Below, one piece after another: positions 16,091 to 47,960 of a stretch of DNA of 51,094 bases (its first letter is position 1; every line of letters begins with the position of its first letter). The stretch lies in NCBI GenBank assembly GCA_015523465.1, contig WAKF01000048.1:1-51094 (forward strand). The letters are read 5' to 3'. Below the pieces are notes generated by a model that made no database searches, was not told the origin of the DNA, and was given only the letters and a program-made list of their open reading frames with translations. Position numbers and translations under genes: made by a program. This stretch comes from Aeropyrum sp. GTDB taxonomy: Archaea; Thermoproteota; Thermoprotei_A; Sulfolobales; Acidilobaceae.

Positions 16091-16186
16091 TCAATAGTTA
16101 ATATTGAGTTGCCTTTGAAACCCTTAAACAAGTATTCCGTCCTAAATGGGTTCCGCTGTAGGAGAGGGGGCTGTGGGGGCTTAGAT

Positions 16187-16891
16187 ATGAATGATATCAT
16201 TCCTACCTATGACGTGTGGTGGAGCCTCTTCAAGCTATTCACCACAGTGGGTCTTGTCATAGCAGGCGGCGTAACCCTCTTCTATATATACACGCTATTC
16301 AGGTACAAGTCGGATACCACTCCAGAGGACGTTAGTCTTAGGGAAGCCGCTACGGGTATAAGGAGGATTCTAATAGAGACTAAGCCTAGAGGGGTTACGA
16401 GGGTAATATTACTTCTAACGGGAGTTGTAGTCTTCACTCTCATAGTGACTACTATAGACGAGACCATTTACCTCGAGTATACGCCCACCGAAGATGCCTT
16501 CCCCGTGTGGGTTACAGGTTTCCAGTTTGGCTGGGAGTTCGAGTATGAAGTTGACGGTGAGACTGTGAAGACTGTGGGCTACGTGGTACTCCCCGCCGAT
16601 ACCGTCATAGAGTTTAAGGTGACTAGCCGCGACGTCTTCCACACTTTTGGAGCGGCCGAGTTTAAAGTTAAGGTTGACGCGATCCCAGGGATCCTAAATA
16701 CCATGTGGACTAAAACGCCCCCAGAGCCGAGCGTCTTCACAGCTTACTGCTATGAACTATGTGGCGTGGGTCATAGCTTCATGACTGCTAAGGTAATAGT
16801 CGTTGATAAGGATGAATTCTTCCAAGCCTATAACGCTGGTCCCGAGAAGTTCAAGGCATACATTGAGGAGGTAGCTGCTAAGTATAGGTAG
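16187..16891 (+). CDS. Haem-copper oxidase subunit II (CuA-binding)
   Basis: This 234-residue protein delivers electrons from its donor to subunit I through the CuA centre. Two N-terminal transmembrane helices (about 15-38 and 70-95) precede an extracytoplasmic cupredoxin domain. CuA ligands are visible as His in DVFHTFGAAEF and the CYELCGVGHSFM cluster (two Cys, Glu carbonyl, His, Met). GFQFGWEFEY is the aromatic electron-entry region. I start at ATG 16187 behind GTGGGGGC. The upstream extension to TTG 16109 adds an unusual Cys/Gly/Arg-rich segment. No haem-c motif is present, so this is not a caa3-type fusion. The fused subunit I+III gene follows 10 bases downstream. Confidence 0.93.
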   Translation: MNDIIPTYDVWWSLFKLFTTVGLVIAGGVTLFYIYTLFRYKSDTTPEDVSLREAATGIRRILIETKPRGVTRVILLLTGVVVFTLIVTTIDETIYLEYTPTEDAFPVWVTGFQFGWEFEYEVDGETVKTVGYVVLPADTVIEFKVTSRDVFHTFGAAEFKVKVDAIPGILNTMWTKTPPEPSVFTAYCYELCGVGHSFMTAKVIVVDKDEFFQAYNAGPEKFKAYIEEVAAKYR

Positions 16892-16901
16892 CGGGGGGTG
16901 A

Positions 16902-19355
16902 ATGGTAGTGGTGAATACCCAGTTCTTAAGGGGATTTGGACGCTGGCTCCTCCACTGGCTAACCACCACTAACCACAAGGACATAGGGCTACTCTACCTT
17001 GTAACCAGCACGGGCTTCCTAATCGTAGCTGGAATCTTAGCACTCCTATTCAGGATACAGCTTGCCAGGCCCGAGGATCAATTCCTAGTCGGGAACGAAT
17101 ACTACCAGGCAGTCACAGTTCACGGGCTCATAATGCTACTGTGGTTCGCATCCCCCTTCGCCCTAGGCCTAGCCAACTACATAGTCCCCCTGCAGATAGG
17201 AGCCAGAGACCTAGCATTCCCGAGGCTAAACGCTCTCAGCTACTGGCTCTACCTACTAAGCGGTATCCTACTGATCATGGGGTTCTTCACCGAGGGCGGG
17301 GCTGTTAATGTAGGTTGGACCCTCTACGCTCCGCTCACGTCTAAAGAGTTCACTCCCAGCGTTGGCGTAGACCTAGCAGCTCTAGCTATATTCCTCCTCT
17401 CAGTTAGTATCACAGTAGGTACCATCAACTTCTTAGTAACAGTAGCCGCTATGAGAGCTCCTGGCATGAGCTGGATGAGGCTACCGATGTTCACGTGGAG
17501 CATAGTGTTCACCATGATATTAATGCTATGGGCCTTCCCGCCCCTTATGGTAGGCGCCGCCCTACTCTGGCTCGACAGGAACACGAGTATCGAGGTGCTG
17601 AGCAACCCTGCAGGCGGAGCCTTGCTATGGGATCACTTATTCTGGTTCTTCGGCCACCCAGAAGTCTATATACTGCTCTTCCCCGCCTTGGGCGCTATAG
17701 CTGATATAGTTGCCACGTTTAGCGGGAGGCCCATCTACGCGAAAAAGTATATTATAACGGCGTTTCTTATAGCCACCGCGCTAAGCTATCTTGTCTGGAT
17801 GCACCACATGTTCGTTACTGGCACTAACCTCTACACTAGGCTGTTCTTCAGCATAACCACTATATTCATCTCGATACCATTCGAGATGGCCACTATGTCA
17901 CTAATATTCACCATGTACAAGGGCACGATCAGGTTCACAGTGCCAATGATCCTAGCGGCGGCAGCGATCTTCCACTTCATACTAGGAGGGGCTACGGGAG
18001 TATATCTAGGCAGCATAGCCATAGACAAGAACCTAAGGGGCACTTACTGGGTCGTAGCCCACTTCCACTACATACTAGTGGGTACGATGCTACTCGGCCT
18101 TATGGCAGGGCTCTATTACTGGTTCCCCAAGATCACGGGTAGGATGTATAATAGGAGGCTAGGCATACTCCACATTATACTAGCAGTAATCGGAGTCAAC
18201 CTAACATTCTTCCCACAGTTCATAGCCTACGAGATGCCTAGGAGGTACTTCACCTACGACAATCCCGCATGGCTACTGCCTAACGAGCTTTCAACCATCG
18301 GGGCCTACATATTCGGTCTCTCCTTCATAGTATTCCTAGTCAACATGATATGGTCCGCTATCAGGGGCCCCAAGGCGCCTGAGAACCCCTGGGGAGCGTG
18401 GACTCTCGAGTGGTTCACTAAGAGCCCGCCACCGCCGGAGAACTTCGAGGGAGTCCCTGTCGTGAAGAACGACGGCACCGTAGTATTCGTCTCCGAGGAG
18501 GTTGTGGAGAAGTACGGGGCCGAGAAAGTAGTGTCAGGCGAGATCCCCGCAACAGCCCTTAGGGGTGGAGGCCACGCATCCAATGGTAACGGCCATAAAC
18601 ACCACTACACTATAGATCCCTTCCTAGTGGCGATTGCATCCTTCATACTACTAGCAGGCCTAGCGCTTAATAAAGTGCTACTGGTTGTCGGCGCAGCATT
18701 CCTCGTATTCACACTTATAAGGTGGGCCGCCAAGGACGTCTACAACAAGTTCTTCGAGCCCCTGCCACCTTACCACGAAACATGGCCTTTCAGCAGAGAC
18801 AAGATTAGAACCGCACTCTGGGTATTAGTAGCTAGCGAGGTCATGGTGTTCGGAAGCATATTCTCGGCCTACTTCTTCATAAGGTTCAACCCCGTCGGTA
18901 AGGTGCTCACAGAGGCATGGCCTCCAGGCTATCTCATACACGATGTAGGCGTTGGCCTGATAAACACGGTAGTGCTGTTCACGGGCACGCTACTCTACAG
19001 CCTCGGCTACATAGCCTTGAGAGCCGGGTTGAGGAATGCAGCCATAGCTGGGTTCATAGGAGCAGTATTCTTCAACGTGCTCTTCCTAGTTATCAAGTAC
19101 TTTGAGTGGGGAGAGCTATTCGCCCAGGGCTACGGGTTGGACCATAGTCTTGCTATGCAACTCTACTATATAACTACTGGTGCTCACGGGCTTCACGTCT
19201 TCATGGGGGTCTTGATGACCCTATACATACTCGCTAAGGTGTTTGCCAATACCATCAACGAGAGGAACATGAACGAGGCGCTAGCCGTAGGGATCTACTG
19301 GGGTATAGTAGAGATAGTGTGGGCCTTCGTATTCCCACTGTTCTACCTAGTCTAG
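16902..19355 (+). CDS. Haem-copper oxidase subunit I+III fusion
   Basis: An 817-residue fusion. The first part (about 1-560) is subunit I, with the haem-a His in TVHGLIMLLWF, the CuB/active-site motif FFGHPEVYIL (His ligand, Glu of the D-channel, crosslinked Tyr), the two CuB His in MHHMFVTG, and HFHYILVGT with the haem ligands. GHPEVY with glutamate marks an A1-type oxidase. The last part (about 600-817) is subunit III (LPPYHETWPFSRDKIRTALW, then helices ending HGLHVFMGV). An overlapping Gly/His-rich linker (HASNGNGHKHH) joins them. Aeropyrum has the same fusion. The family reduces O2 to water while pumping protons. The start ATG 16902 follows GGGGGGTGA. Confidence 0.95.
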   Translation: MVVVNTQFLRGFGRWLLHWLTTTNHKDIGLLYLVTSTGFLIVAGILALLFRIQLARPEDQFLVGNEYYQAVTVHGLIMLLWFASPFALGLANYIVPLQIGARDLAFPRLNALSYWLYLLSGILLIMGFFTEGGAVNVGWTLYAPLTSKEFTPSVGVDLAALAIFLLSVSITVGTINFLVTVAAMRAPGMSWMRLPMFTWSIVFTMILMLWAFPPLMVGAALLWLDRNTSIEVLSNPAGGALLWDHLFWFFGHPEVYILLFPALGAIADIVATFSGRPIYAKKYIITAFLIATALSYLVWMHHMFVTGTNLYTRLFFSITTIFISIPFEMATMSLIFTMYKGTIRFTVPMILAAAAIFHFILGGATGVYLGSIAIDKNLRGTYWVVAHFHYILVGTMLLGLMAGLYYWFPKITGRMYNRRLGILHIILAVIGVNLTFFPQFIAYEMPRRYFTYDNPAWLLPNELSTIGAYIFGLSFIVFLVNMIWSAIRGPKAPENPWGAWTLEWFTKSPPPPENFEGVPVVKNDGTVVFVSEEVVEKYGAEKVVSGEIPATALRGGGHASNGNGHKHHYTIDPFLVAIASFILLAGLALNKVLLVVGAAFLVFTLIRWAAKDVYNKFFEPLPPYHETWPFSRDKIRTALWVLVASEVMVFGSIFSAYFFIRFNPVGKVLTEAWPPGYLIHDVGVGLINTVVLFTGTLLYSLGYIALRAGLRNAAIAGFIGAVFFNVLFLVIKYFEWGELFAQGYGLDHSLAMQLYYITTGAHGLHVFMGVLMTLYILAKVFANTINERNMNEALAVGIYWGIVEIVWAFVFPLFYLV

Positions 19356-26719: not shown

Positions 26720-27034
26720 GTGGCAGCAATGCCTGGGAAGAAGTGGACCTGCGCTCTATGCGGCGGCGAAGTAGTGGAAGGCCAAAGATTCACCTTCCTA
26801 CCTGGAATGGGGGCTGTTCATGTGGAATGCTTGAACGAGAGGCTCCTTAGGAAGGGTGGAGAGGCTGCAGCGCTAGCTGCAGCCAACGAGGTGCTACTAT
26901 ACGCCATAATAAGGCTTAAGGAGGCTGAAAGGGCTGCAGAGGAGGGGGAGGTTAGAAGCAAGATAGCAGAGGTTAGAAGGGAAGTCGAGAAGGCAGCCGG
27001 TAGCCTAGCCCAGCTCCTATCAAAACATGTATAG
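26720..27034 (+). CDS. DUF2175-like zinc-binding protein
   Basis: A 104-residue protein with KKWTCALCGGEVVEGQRFTFL and AVHVECLNERL, the CxxC...HxxC zinc-binding arrangement of the DUF2175 family found in Sulfolobales, Desulfurococcales and relatives. The C-terminal half is a helical, alanine/glutamate-rich segment (about 45-104). Function unknown. GTG 26720 and ATG 26729 are alternative starts. Confidence 0.75.
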   Translation: MAAMPGKKWTCALCGGEVVEGQRFTFLPGMGAVHVECLNERLLRKGGEAAALAAANEVLLYAIIRLKEAERAAEEGEVRSKIAEVRREVEKAAGSLAQLLSKHV

Positions 27035-27122
27035 TCTGCGACGGCATTGAGGCCCTCTAAGAGACCTCACATTTGTGAGTCTCCCTTAAAGCTACCCTTA
27101 ACCCCTTCCTTAAGAGTGGAGC

Positions 27123-27821
27123 GTGAGAGCAATGGAGGGTAGAACCCTCGCGTACGTGCTGGCGGCCTCGGCCCTAGTCTTGCTCGCAGGGCTAGGAGGG
27201 TATGCTGTGTGGGCTACAACCACAGCCCAGGCTCACGGAGAAGGCTCTGACGAAACCGTAGGCTACCAGGGCTGGATCGGTATGGGAGGAATGATGGGAG
27301 AGGGAATGATGGGAATGGGCGGCGGAATGGGTAGAGGAGCCCCCGGCATGGGAGGCTACGGGGACCACGACGAAGCGCCTTTCGCCAGCGGTAGGATGGG
27401 CGGCGACGAGCACGGTTACATGGATCGCGGCTATGGAGAGGGATTCATGGATGAGTGGTGCTGGGAGGCTATGGGCGATATGGGCTTCCCCATGTACCCT
27501 GACATGCCATTCGGGCCTATAAGCCTTGAAGAGTTCGAGGCTACTGTGAAGGAGGTTGACGTTGAGAGCATGATAATAGTGGTTGAGACCGAGGACGGGG
27601 AGACCATAACCCTCAAGGCCCTATCCAGGTATGTTGACATGGAGAGTGGAGCCTTCACCTTCGGGCCTTGGATACTGGCTCAACTAGAGCCTGGGGACGA
27701 TGTAGCTGTAAAGGCTGTCGTAAGGGGTGGTGACAGGGGCGTAGCCCTCGGCATCGGCTTCGGCGGCAACGAGTACCTGCATCCAATGCTGGCTTTCAAG
27801 GAGCTAGCAGGCGGGCACTAG
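27123..27821 (+). CDS. Exported Met/Gly/His-rich protein, probable metal binder
   Basis: A 232-residue protein with an N-terminal signal anchor (about 8-30). Next comes a low-complexity Met-Gly region (about 50-80, repeats of the type GGMMGEGMMGMGGGMGRG), then His/Asp/Met-rich stretches (GYGDHDE, GDEHGYMDRG, WCWEAMGDMGFPMYPDM). A compact C-terminal domain (about 135-225) reads like an OB-type or small beta-domain (ATVKEVDVESMIIVVETEDG). Dense methionine and histidine outside the membrane is typical of Cu(I)/Cu(II) or Ag binding proteins, but the metal is inferred. First gene of a four-gene operon; GTG 27123 or ATG 27132 start. Confidence 0.65.
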   Translation: MRAMEGRTLAYVLAASALVLLAGLGGYAVWATTTAQAHGEGSDETVGYQGWIGMGGMMGEGMMGMGGGMGRGAPGMGGYGDHDEAPFASGRMGGDEHGYMDRGYGEGFMDEWCWEAMGDMGFPMYPDMPFGPISLEEFEATVKEVDVESMIIVVETEDGETITLKALSRYVDMESGAFTFGPWILAQLEPGDDVAVKAVVRGGDRGVALGIGFGGNEYLHPMLAFKELAGGH

Positions 27822-27836
27822 GGGGTCTGAGGGTTT

Positions 27837-28391
27837 ATGCCCTCCAAGGTCTCCCCCCTAACGCTATTTTTCGTGCTCCTATCGTTAGTAATCCCTATCA
27901 TAGCCTACGCCTACTACCCCGACTCCGCGCCCTCAGCATCCGAGGTCCTACGCGGTCTCGGAGTTGAGTCGGGTGGCGTGGCAGGGCGCCTGGGGGAGGC
28001 TGTATCATCGGCTCTCTATACTAAGAGGGACGTTGTCTGGGGAGAGCCTCATAGGATTGGAGGGATGATGGTTAGGGTTGGGGACGCCATAGTAATGCCA
28101 TCTCCGGGGCTGTGGGTGACGGAGCATGGTAGGACTTTGAGGCCTATGGAGGTGATGTTGCTGCTAGCCAAGGCTGAGAGGGTACGAGCTGAGGGCTATG
28201 AGGCTGTTTGGTACATGGGGCCTCATGGGAGGGTTAAGGTGCTTGTGGCCGAGAAGATCGAGGTGGTTATAAACGGCGTCAGCGTGGACCTAGAGCGCGT
28301 CGAAGATGCTGAGAGGTGGGGTGAAGAATGGGGCTATCCTATGGGGCCTATGGGCATGCCAATGCACCACCATCACGGCAGCGGGAGGTAG
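27837..28391 (+). CDS. Exported protein with Met/His-rich tail
   Basis: A 184-residue protein with a signal peptide or anchor (about 8-26). The soluble domain repeats the pattern GEPHRIGGMMVRVGDAIVMP, with short helices following. The last 22 residues form a metal-binding-like tail, GYPMGPMGMPMHHHHGSGR, with four consecutive histidines and four methionines. No family recognised. The ATG at 27837 is 15 bases after the preceding stop, behind GGGGGTCTGAGGG. The shared Met/His enrichment with its neighbour points to one extracytoplasmic metal-handling function. Confidence 0.6.
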   Translation: MPSKVSPLTLFFVLLSLVIPIIAYAYYPDSAPSASEVLRGLGVESGGVAGRLGEAVSSALYTKRDVVWGEPHRIGGMMVRVGDAIVMPSPGLWVTEHGRTLRPMEVMLLLAKAERVRAEGYEAVWYMGPHGRVKVLVAEKIEVVINGVSVDLERVEDAERWGEEWGYPMGPMGMPMHHHHGSGR

Positions 28392-28397
28392 CCTACG

Positions 28398-28970
28398 TTG
28401 CCCTCCGAGCTATCCTACGCCCTAGCCACAATAAACCTCCTAGGAGCCCTGGGCTTCGGGTATATTGCGTATAGGTTCTACATCCTCTCAACGAGGGCTG
28501 GCTCCAGGCTAGACCCTCCAGTAGCCTTCACTCTACTACTAGCTTCACAGCTCGCGGGGGCCATCGCACAGCTAGCCCCTGAAAGGCTGTCATTCGCATC
28601 CTATGTAGCCACAGGCACCTTCACAGCAGGGGCCCTAGCAACACTCCTAGCCCAGAGGAGTAGAGGGTACGCGGCTATAACAGTGCCATACATACCACCA
28701 GCACTCCTAGCAGCAGCTTCCGACGCGATAGCAGCACTAGTCTCCGCCCTAGGAGCTATGAAGTTCCGGGGTGAAGCCCGGCTACTCTCGGCAGTCCTAG
28801 CCCTAGCCTTCACCCTGAGGCTAGCAAGCATACCACTACTACCAAGCCCCCTAGGTGTAGCCCTCCTAACTGGGGGCGAGGGACTGAGGGCCCTTGGGGC
28901 TGCCGCGTTAGCTATCCGATACGCCATCCCAGCCGCATCGGTGAGAAGTCATGGGGAGGAAGAGAAGTAG
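28398..28970 (+). CDS. Uncharacterised polytopic membrane protein
   Basis: A 190-residue protein with about six hydrophobic segments (about 8-28, 38-58, 62-80, 88-115, 122-142, 150-178) and alanine/leucine-rich composition. There are no clear transporter motifs and few charged residues in the helices. It starts at TTG 28398, 6 bases after the preceding stop, and overlaps the next gene by 20 bases. In context it could be the membrane partner of the two Met/His-rich exported proteins. That role is inferred from position only. Confidence 0.6.
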   Translation: MPSELSYALATINLLGALGFGYIAYRFYILSTRAGSRLDPPVAFTLLLASQLAGAIAQLAPERLSFASYVATGTFTAGALATLLAQRSRGYAAITVPYIPPALLAAASDAIAALVSALGAMKFRGEARLLSAVLALAFTLRLASIPLLPSPLGVALLTGGEGLRALGAAALAIRYAIPAASVRSHGEEEK

Positions 28971-29232
28971 GATCGAGATCATAGCAGACATACTGGAGGC
29001 TGTTGACAATGCCCCCCAGAACCCTACCAGGCTAGCAACGATAGCAAACCTACCCTACGACAGGCTCCAGCCCATACTCAGAGACCTGGAGGCCCGGGGG
29101 GTAGTCACTGTTACCCCGGCCCCCGACGGTAAGGGGAGTATAGTGGAGCTCACAGAGAAGGGTAGAGTGCTTCTCTGGGAAATAAGGAGGCTCAGGAAGG
29201 TCCTGGAAGACTTCGGCCTCGACATACTCTAG
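28951..29232 (+). CDS. Winged-helix DNA-binding protein (HTH_45-like)
   Basis: A 93-residue protein with the layout of archaeal HTH_45 regulators: helix SRIEIIADILEAV, then NPTRLATIANLPYDRLQPILRDLEARGVV as the recognition region (signature ANLPYDRLQPILRDLE), a wing (TVTPAPDGKGSIVELTEKG) and a C-terminal dimerisation helix (LLWEIRRLRKVLEDFG). It overlaps the end of the membrane-protein gene by 20 bases. It is probably the local regulator of this operon, but no metal-sensing Cys/His cluster is visible in it. The stop shares a CTAG with the stop of the convergent peroxiredoxin. Confidence 0.82.
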   Translation: MGRKRSRIEIIADILEAVDNAPQNPTRLATIANLPYDRLQPILRDLEARGVVTVTPAPDGKGSIVELTEKGRVLLWEIRRLRKVLEDFGLDIL

Positions 29233-47129: not shown

Positions 47130-47960
47130 GTGGAGGGTTTGTCTGCATTTGCAGCATCAGCACTCGTAACGTTTAGGGAAGCGTTCGAGGCGGCACTTCT
47201 CCTCTCAATAATACTAATTGTGTTATCGAGGCTTGGCAGAAAGGAGCTTAGGCCCTATGCCTATGCCGCGACACTAGTATCCATCCTCCTAGGTATAGGG
47301 TTAGGGGGAGGCGTCTACATACTCTATCATGGATTTCCTGAAAAGGCCCTCTTCGAAGCCTTCTCAGCGTACTTGGCGGCTGTCGTCCTGGTCACCGTAA
47401 TAATATGGATGGCCCGTCACGGACCAAATATTAAGCGGGAGGTAGAGGAGAAGCTAGCTAAAGCCTTCACGCCTATATCCGTAGCCATCATATCCTTCAT
47501 ATTCGTGTTCCGCGAGGTACTAGAGACAATACTAATAACAGCTCCCTTCCTAGTCCAAAACCCCCCTGCCACCGTAGCTGGGGTAGTCGTGGGCACAGTA
47601 GGCGCCTTAATCCTCGTCTCACTAATATACCTTGTAGGGCTAAAGATTAACCTCCGCCTGTTCTTCCTTGCAACCTCTATTATGCTCGTCTTCGTTGCTT
47701 CAGGCCTAGTAGGGTACGGCACGCACGAGCTTCTAGAATGGGTTGAAGAGAGGGGCGTAGAGCTGGGAGTACTGGGAGTTAAGGTATACAGTTTAAACAT
47801 ACCAGAATCTAGCCTCCTTCACCCCAATAACCTAATTGGAGGTGTACTCTCAGTCCTCCTAGGATGGTACCATTACATGGAGCTAGCTAGGTTTCTAGCT
47901 CAGTTCATGTTCCTAAGCTTGGGGTTATTCTACGTTCTTAGGTCTTACCGTCTCCTCTAG
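47130..47960 (+). CDS. FTR1-family iron permease
   Basis: A 276-residue polytopic protein with seven predicted helices. The first REAFEAALLLS (residues about 14-24) and the FREVLETILIT in helix 4 are the paired RExxE motifs that bind iron in FTR1/EfeU. No ferroxidase (EfeO/EfeB-like) gene is adjacent. The family imports ferric or ferrous iron, sometimes lead. GTG 47130 is the likely start; TTG 47139 is an alternative. A tandem repeat lies directly upstream. Confidence 0.9.
   Translation: MEGLSAFAASALVTFREAFEAALLLSIILIVLSRLGRKELRPYAYAATLVSILLGIGLGGGVYILYHGFPEKALFEAFSAYLAAVVLVTVIIWMARHGPNIKREVEEKLAKAFTPISVAIISFIFVFREVLETILITAPFLVQNPPATVAGVVVGTVGALILVSLIYLVGLKINLRLFFLATSIMLVFVASGLVGYGTHELLEWVEERGVELGVLGVKVYSLNIPESSLLHPNNLIGGVLSVLLGWYHYMELARFLAQFMFLSLGLFYVLRSYRLL

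Follow-up and report, generated by a model that had tools for sequence, protein, structure and literature searches.

Introduction

The closest described systems to the locus examined here are the sil and pco silver and copper resistance systems, in which a Met/His-rich metal sponge, SilE or PcoE, is encoded beside SilRS or PcoRS (PMC5008109). CusF and SilF, which act as Ag(I)/Cu(I) chaperones (PMC10656224), and CopT and CopR, which are copper regulators of archaea (e.g. PMC7830388), provide further points of comparison. How a signal from outside the cell reaches a transcription factor is largely an open question in this archaeal group.

The window is the whole 51,094 nucleotide stretch of Aeropyrum sp. 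DNA that was analyzed, and it belongs to an archaeal assembly of 1.80 Mb that is 96.6% complete. Four adjacent genes within it, here called A, B, C, and D, resemble sil and pco in placing a predicted extracytoplasmic protein that bears Met and His beside a membrane protein and a regulator that plausibly control its gene. The parts differ: the exported domain is putatively OB-like, C is not a histidine kinase, D is not a response regulator and an RND pump is absent. Neither C nor D gave a Pfam match to histidine kinase or response-regulator domains, and the unit is not a two-component system. SilE and PcoE are characterized by many Met and His residues in repeated motifs; of the two proteins here, A is rich in Met without being rich in His, B carries a Met/His tail, and export is predicted.

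A single-sequence model of the A domain was all-beta and resembled OB folds, including those of CspA, IF-1, CusF, and SilF, with low confidence (pLDDT 54, E > 0.03). However, no Pfam CusF match was obtained for A or B, the matches to CspA and IF-1 were better or equal, and the Met and His residues lie outside the domain core. With CopT and CopR the locus shares winged-helix regulation of an archaeal type that is possibly linked to copper, but D contains neither Cys nor an extra metal-binding domain, and its control would run through a membrane protein. No part of the unit is a tested member of the sil/pco or CusF/SilF families, and it is the exported domain that may resemble CusF and SilF. The preliminary description knew of no named system with these parts, and the libraries searched likewise contained none. 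In the open-licence literature that was searched, no paper named DUF7521 or DUF5985, and none was found that dealt with Met-rich copper proteins in Aeropyrum.

Results

Organization of the four-gene unit

All four open reading frames lie on the forward strand. Gene A (27123–27821, 232 aa) encodes a Met/Gly-rich protein, predicted to be exported or anchored, with the OB-like domain at approximately residues 131–232. It is followed by B (27837–28391, 184 aa), predicted to be an anchored exported protein with a domain distantly related to that of A, which ends in the C-terminus MGMPMHHHHGSGR and carries its Met/His tail at approximately residues 169–180. Gene C (28398–28970, 190 aa, TTG start) encodes a membrane protein of 5–6 predicted helices, given as six in the preliminary description, and D (28951–29232, 93 aa) a winged-helix protein of the HTH_45, Sso10a-like type without Cys or His. 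The genes are separated by gaps of 15 and 6 bp and then overlap by 20 bp, exactly as the preliminary description had given them. Its view of a tight unit with a regulator was supported, and the unit was found conserved in other genomes, which rules out a chance arrangement of open reading frames.

The composition of A and B was tested against the 41 other open reading frames of the window. A contained 19 Met where 5.2 were expected (P = 1.8e-6) and 46 Gly where 19.6 were expected (P = 5e-8), while its five His against 3.2 expected gave no enrichment (P = 0.2). In B, 10 Met against 4.1 expected and seven His against 2.5 expected gave P values of about 0.01 each, with the residues concentrated in the C-terminal tail. 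The earlier statement that both exported proteins have Met-Gly and His-rich regions thus holds for Met and Gly in A and for His in the tail of B, but not for His in A.

Each of the two proteins has one N-terminal hydrophobic segment, from which their export is predicted. No credible Pfam or NCBIfam match was found for A, B, or C, with A and B matching no Pfam family at E values up to 1, and a profile search of solved structures with the same three proteins returned nothing credible. The domains of A and B are distant relatives of one another (hhalign probability 88%, E 3.5e-6), and they may, with low confidence, share a distant OB-like fold.

Conservation of C and D

Relatives of C were found across the class in 20 of 147 genomes by single-sequence search and in 52 of 229 by profile search. 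A single bacterial match in the contig scan was doubtful and was dropped. When the gene neighborhoods of 54 C loci were compared, D lay directly downstream of C in 53, and at the one remaining locus the contig breaks off after C. The exported proteins near this pair were less constant: B was present at 40 of the 54 loci, A at 19 and an unrelated exported protein, P, at 10, and the exported genes are often divergent from C-D. The conserved core is therefore formed by C and D, with the exported proteins as variable cargo. Several genomes that lack an oxidase (e.g., L029, L030, L032, L034, and L036) also keep B-C-D, with a B that contains few Met and His. The preliminary description had named homologs that keep the domains without Met/His enrichment as evidence against a metal role; such homologs exist in part of the set, and Met/His-rich proteins do not define the system. 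What that description missed is that C and D are a conserved membrane-protein/transcription-factor pair with its own candidate palindromic operator and an exported cargo that depends on lineage.

Several variants of the arrangement were observed. Protein P (L025, L028, L031, L032, L036, L072, L075, L080, L084, and L085) has no Pfam match, is His-rich in some loci and replaces A in genomes lacking a haem-copper oxidase. In a second subtype of C-D (L087, L091, L092, L096, and L097) the exported cargo is a Met-poor protein of 162–174 aa of the "NLTGTISL" type, and the operator variants are TCTCAC/ACTAAC-N5-GTTAGT. In one genus (L033, L035, L039, L079, and L083) C-D is followed immediately by, or lies close to, a TauE/SafE-like permease gene, and at L037 and L038, in the two complete genomes of the same genus as the window, a pyridine-nucleotide FAD oxidoreductase gene is located between C-D and A.

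Properties of the membrane protein and the winged-helix protein

Residues Y69, D109, R141, and E161 of C are conserved, and R63, R128, and R164 are near-invariant. The protein from the window contains no Cys and one His. Its single-sequence structure model was poor (pLDDT 45), and a comparison of its two halves gave no signal for a 3+3 helix duplication. The window protein gave no DUF7521 match in Pfam. Relatives of C matched DUF7521/DUF5985 weakly over their first half, the best at 6.3e-6 (L104). The score of this relative against DUF7521 was 26.9 where the family cut-off is 27, and other six-helix relatives lay near or over the cut-off.

A sample of 300 genomes from across the phylum contained DUF7521 in 60, and the family takes two forms. 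The short form is about 90 aa long with an adjacent 112-aa winged helix. The long form, of about 210–230 aa, has a D-like winged helix downstream in most cases and an OB-like exported protein upstream in some. DUF7521 genes thus usually adjoin a winged-helix gene as C does, which extends the pairing of membrane protein and winged helix beyond the order of the window. C differs from this family in its length, which is roughly double that of the DUF7521 model. In ten sampled genomes of another class (L106–L115) a DUF7521 protein of ~90 aa is followed directly by a winged-helix gene of ~112 aa, in a shorter version of the C-D pairing.

The assignment of D as a winged-helix protein was confirmed by its match to PF14947 HTH_45 (2.5e-16, 59.9 bits, above the family cut-off of 25.5) and by its nearest solved structure, Sso10a (PDB 1r7j, 6e-9). 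D shares fold, length and sequence with the Sso10a/HTH_45 proteins; it differs from Sso10a in scoring below the cut-off of the Sso10a subfamily NF053610 (53.2 bits, cut-off 60), in being co-encoded with C and in having a candidate specific site. Cys is absent from the last 88 residues in 50 of 53 D relatives. Since D contains no Cys or His and the C of the window no Cys and a single His, neither protein is a classical cytoplasmic metal sensor, and it is more likely that a signal arises outside the cell and reaches D via B or A and C.

A candidate operator

A palindrome, GAGACCTCACATTTGTGAGTCTC, was identified upstream of A at 27061–27083 (assigned to neither strand), with the core CTCAC-N4-GTGAG at 27066–27079. 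It ends 2 bp upstream of TTAAAG (27086–27091, forward strand), a putative TATA-like box, and 39 bp before the start codon of A, over the expected BRE position. The 1.8 Mb assembly contains no other exact CTCAC-N4/5-GTGAG. Relatives carry ACTCAC-N5-GTGAGT at the same place just upstream of a TATA-like box, most with the N5 spacing rather than the N4 of the window. The palindrome could also have been read as the terminator of the upstream DUF2175 gene; this was not favored, as no T-run follows it and the palindrome is found again in front of module genes regardless of the preceding gene.

After removal of near-duplicate loci, and with up to two mismatches allowed, the palindrome was found at 28 of 71 module promoters, compared with 0.2 expected from shuffled sequences and with 13 of 279 other genes; in about half of the module promoters it was not recognizable at this threshold. 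Among the 13 other matches, those at L034 and L071 stand at the start of ABC operons whose last genes are B-C-D, and those at L087, L091, L096, L097, L101, and L102 precede module cargo genes. Exact sites occurred in 18 of 52 genomes with C and in 12 of 177 without (P = 2e-6), and exact sites for a reversed control pattern were rare. Where the surroundings of an exact site were examined in genomes with C, the site mostly lies ~15–120 bp before genes for A, B, or C, or before A homologs located away from C-D (G074, G082), small CPCMMG-type membrane proteins or a MacB-like ABC ATPase. A good palindrome was not found before the copper-associated gene at L086 or the CPCMMG gene of the genome to which the window belongs. 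The variants ACTCTC/ACTAAC track a change from Ala to Ser or Thr in the segment T[RK][LIV]A of D, in 7 of 7 cases compared with 2 of 20 (P = 4e-5, or 3e-4 after deduplication, neither value being corrected for kinship).

Two further arrangements were seen. At L154 and L155, in two genomes, the palindrome precedes a MacB-like ABC ATPase gene heading an operon that ends in B-C-D. In four genomes without a detectable C (L152, L156, L157, and L159) the gene that follows the palindrome is of the bactofilin type and has an HTH_45/D-like winged helix as its neighbor.

The occurrence of the palindrome at cargo promoters, including unlinked ones, the D-like neighbors in genomes lacking C and the variants that track changes in D all point to D as the binder, and it is very probable that D recognizes this site. 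The location of the site, touching or covering the BRE position, leads us to prefer repression that is relieved by a signal to activation, with moderate confidence, as an activator bound immediately upstream of the BRE would give a similar picture.

Possible association with copper and silver

Copper genes adjoin the module at just 3 of the 54 loci, while Cu-ATPases are found elsewhere in most genomes. At L086 the neighbors of C-D are an ArsR regulator and a Cu-type ATPase that carries two HMA domains; L076 has an HMA gene after A-B, and L102 a DUF411 gene after Met-rich cargo. Linkage to a Cu-ATPase as a general rule was rejected, as it holds at 2–3 of 54 loci. The cargo of L101 and L102 reaches about 21% Met and His. 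In B the combined Met and His content was 9.2% in genomes with a haem-copper oxidase vs. 5.0% in those without (P = 8e-4); after correction for kinship the association kept its direction but was not significant (5 independent pairs, median p 0.25). The cargo of oxidase-bearing genomes of the second subtype is Met-poor, and Met/His-rich cargo occurs in some genomes that lack an oxidase.

The soft-metal reading proposed from composition is plausible with respect to the Cu, HMA, and DUF411 neighbors at three loci and the commoner Met and His alongside an oxidase, but the core is also kept without the enrichment. Composition, aerobic lineages and the few neighboring metal genes favor a Cu- or Ag-like metal as ligand, a suggestion we regard as quite possible though slightly doubtful. 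As several anaerobic relatives have no Met/His enrichment, the switch itself is probably more general, with metal handling as one lineage-specific application of it.

Discussion

C and D probably constitute a membrane-coupled transcription switch with A and B as its exported regulon. D would be the winged-helix transcription factor that binds ACTCAC-N5-GTGAGT beside the BRE/TATA box and C its membrane partner, informing D of conditions outside the cell. That C passes a signal to D appears likely, and contact between the two proteins is suggested by gene order. The genes under control of the palindrome would be mainly the exported cargo of the module itself, here A and B, held repressed until the signal lifts the repression. 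Both cargo proteins would be anchored outside the membrane, each combining an OB-like domain with a Met-rich segment in A or a Met/His tail in B. Their most likely task in this aerobic lineage would be to buffer or chaperone extracytoplasmic soft metal, Cu(I) or possibly Ag(I), in the manner of the bacterial SilE and CusF proteins. B, the most constant partner, may double as a sensing domain for C. Taken whole, a transmembrane C-D switch with palindrome-controlled exported cargo and, here, soft-metal buffering is the best explanation of the data, and we hold it with a confidence that is evenly balanced between acceptance and doubt.

The main competing explanation is that C-D senses envelope or membrane conditions in general, such as redox state, oxygen, membrane damage or toxic compounds, and not metal, with the Met and His of A and B serving a secondary role such as protection from oxidants. 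The cargo does vary by lineage, from A and P to the MacB-like ABC exporter operon and the Met-poor second subtype, and the core persists without Met/His enrichment; the helices of C conserve charged residues rather than metal ligands, and a peroxiredoxin is a neighbor of the unit in the window. Met-rich cargo nevertheless recurs in two separate cargo types, with up to 21% Met and His, and HMA, Cu-ATPase, or DUF411 genes neighbor three loci, and general sensing in place of metal sensing seems somewhat improbable. Supply of copper to the terminal oxidase by A and B, beside the Sco protein of the window and with C-D reporting copper shortage, is unlikely. It would fit the cytochrome oxidase I/III fusion and subunit II that share the window (16109–19355) and the higher Met/His content of B in oxidase-bearing genomes, but elsewhere among the genomes examined the module lies apart from oxidase genes except near contigs of the L086/L087 type, and the oxidase-rich aerobic Sulfolobaceae have no C. 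We consider it highly improbable that D is mainly a chromatin protein tied to C by gene order alone: Sso10a is its closest named family, but the pairing with C is fixed over many families, and a specific palindrome is present at its own promoters together with a co-varying segment of D.

The switch outlined above could tentatively represent a new class of archaeal transmembrane signaling, in which a small DUF7521-like membrane protein would relay an external signal to a co-encoded Sso10a-like winged-helix repressor without phosphorylation and through the palindrome, with lineage-specific cargo and, in aerobes, a Cu/Ag response based on anchored OB-fold Met-rich buffers. Dozens of genomes, two complete ones of the same genus (1,669,696 and 1,595,994 bases) among them, reveal the membrane protein, the transcription factor, the candidate DNA site and the target genes jointly, so that the switch and the metal hypothesis can both be tested directly.

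Two other genes of the window were recorded. The gene immediately preceding the unit (26720–27034), also on the forward strand, encodes a DUF2175 archaeal protein with a CxxC motif. An EfeU/FTR1-type iron permease, scoring below the NCBIfam cut-off, is encoded at 47130–47960 and is a second metal-related gene in the window.
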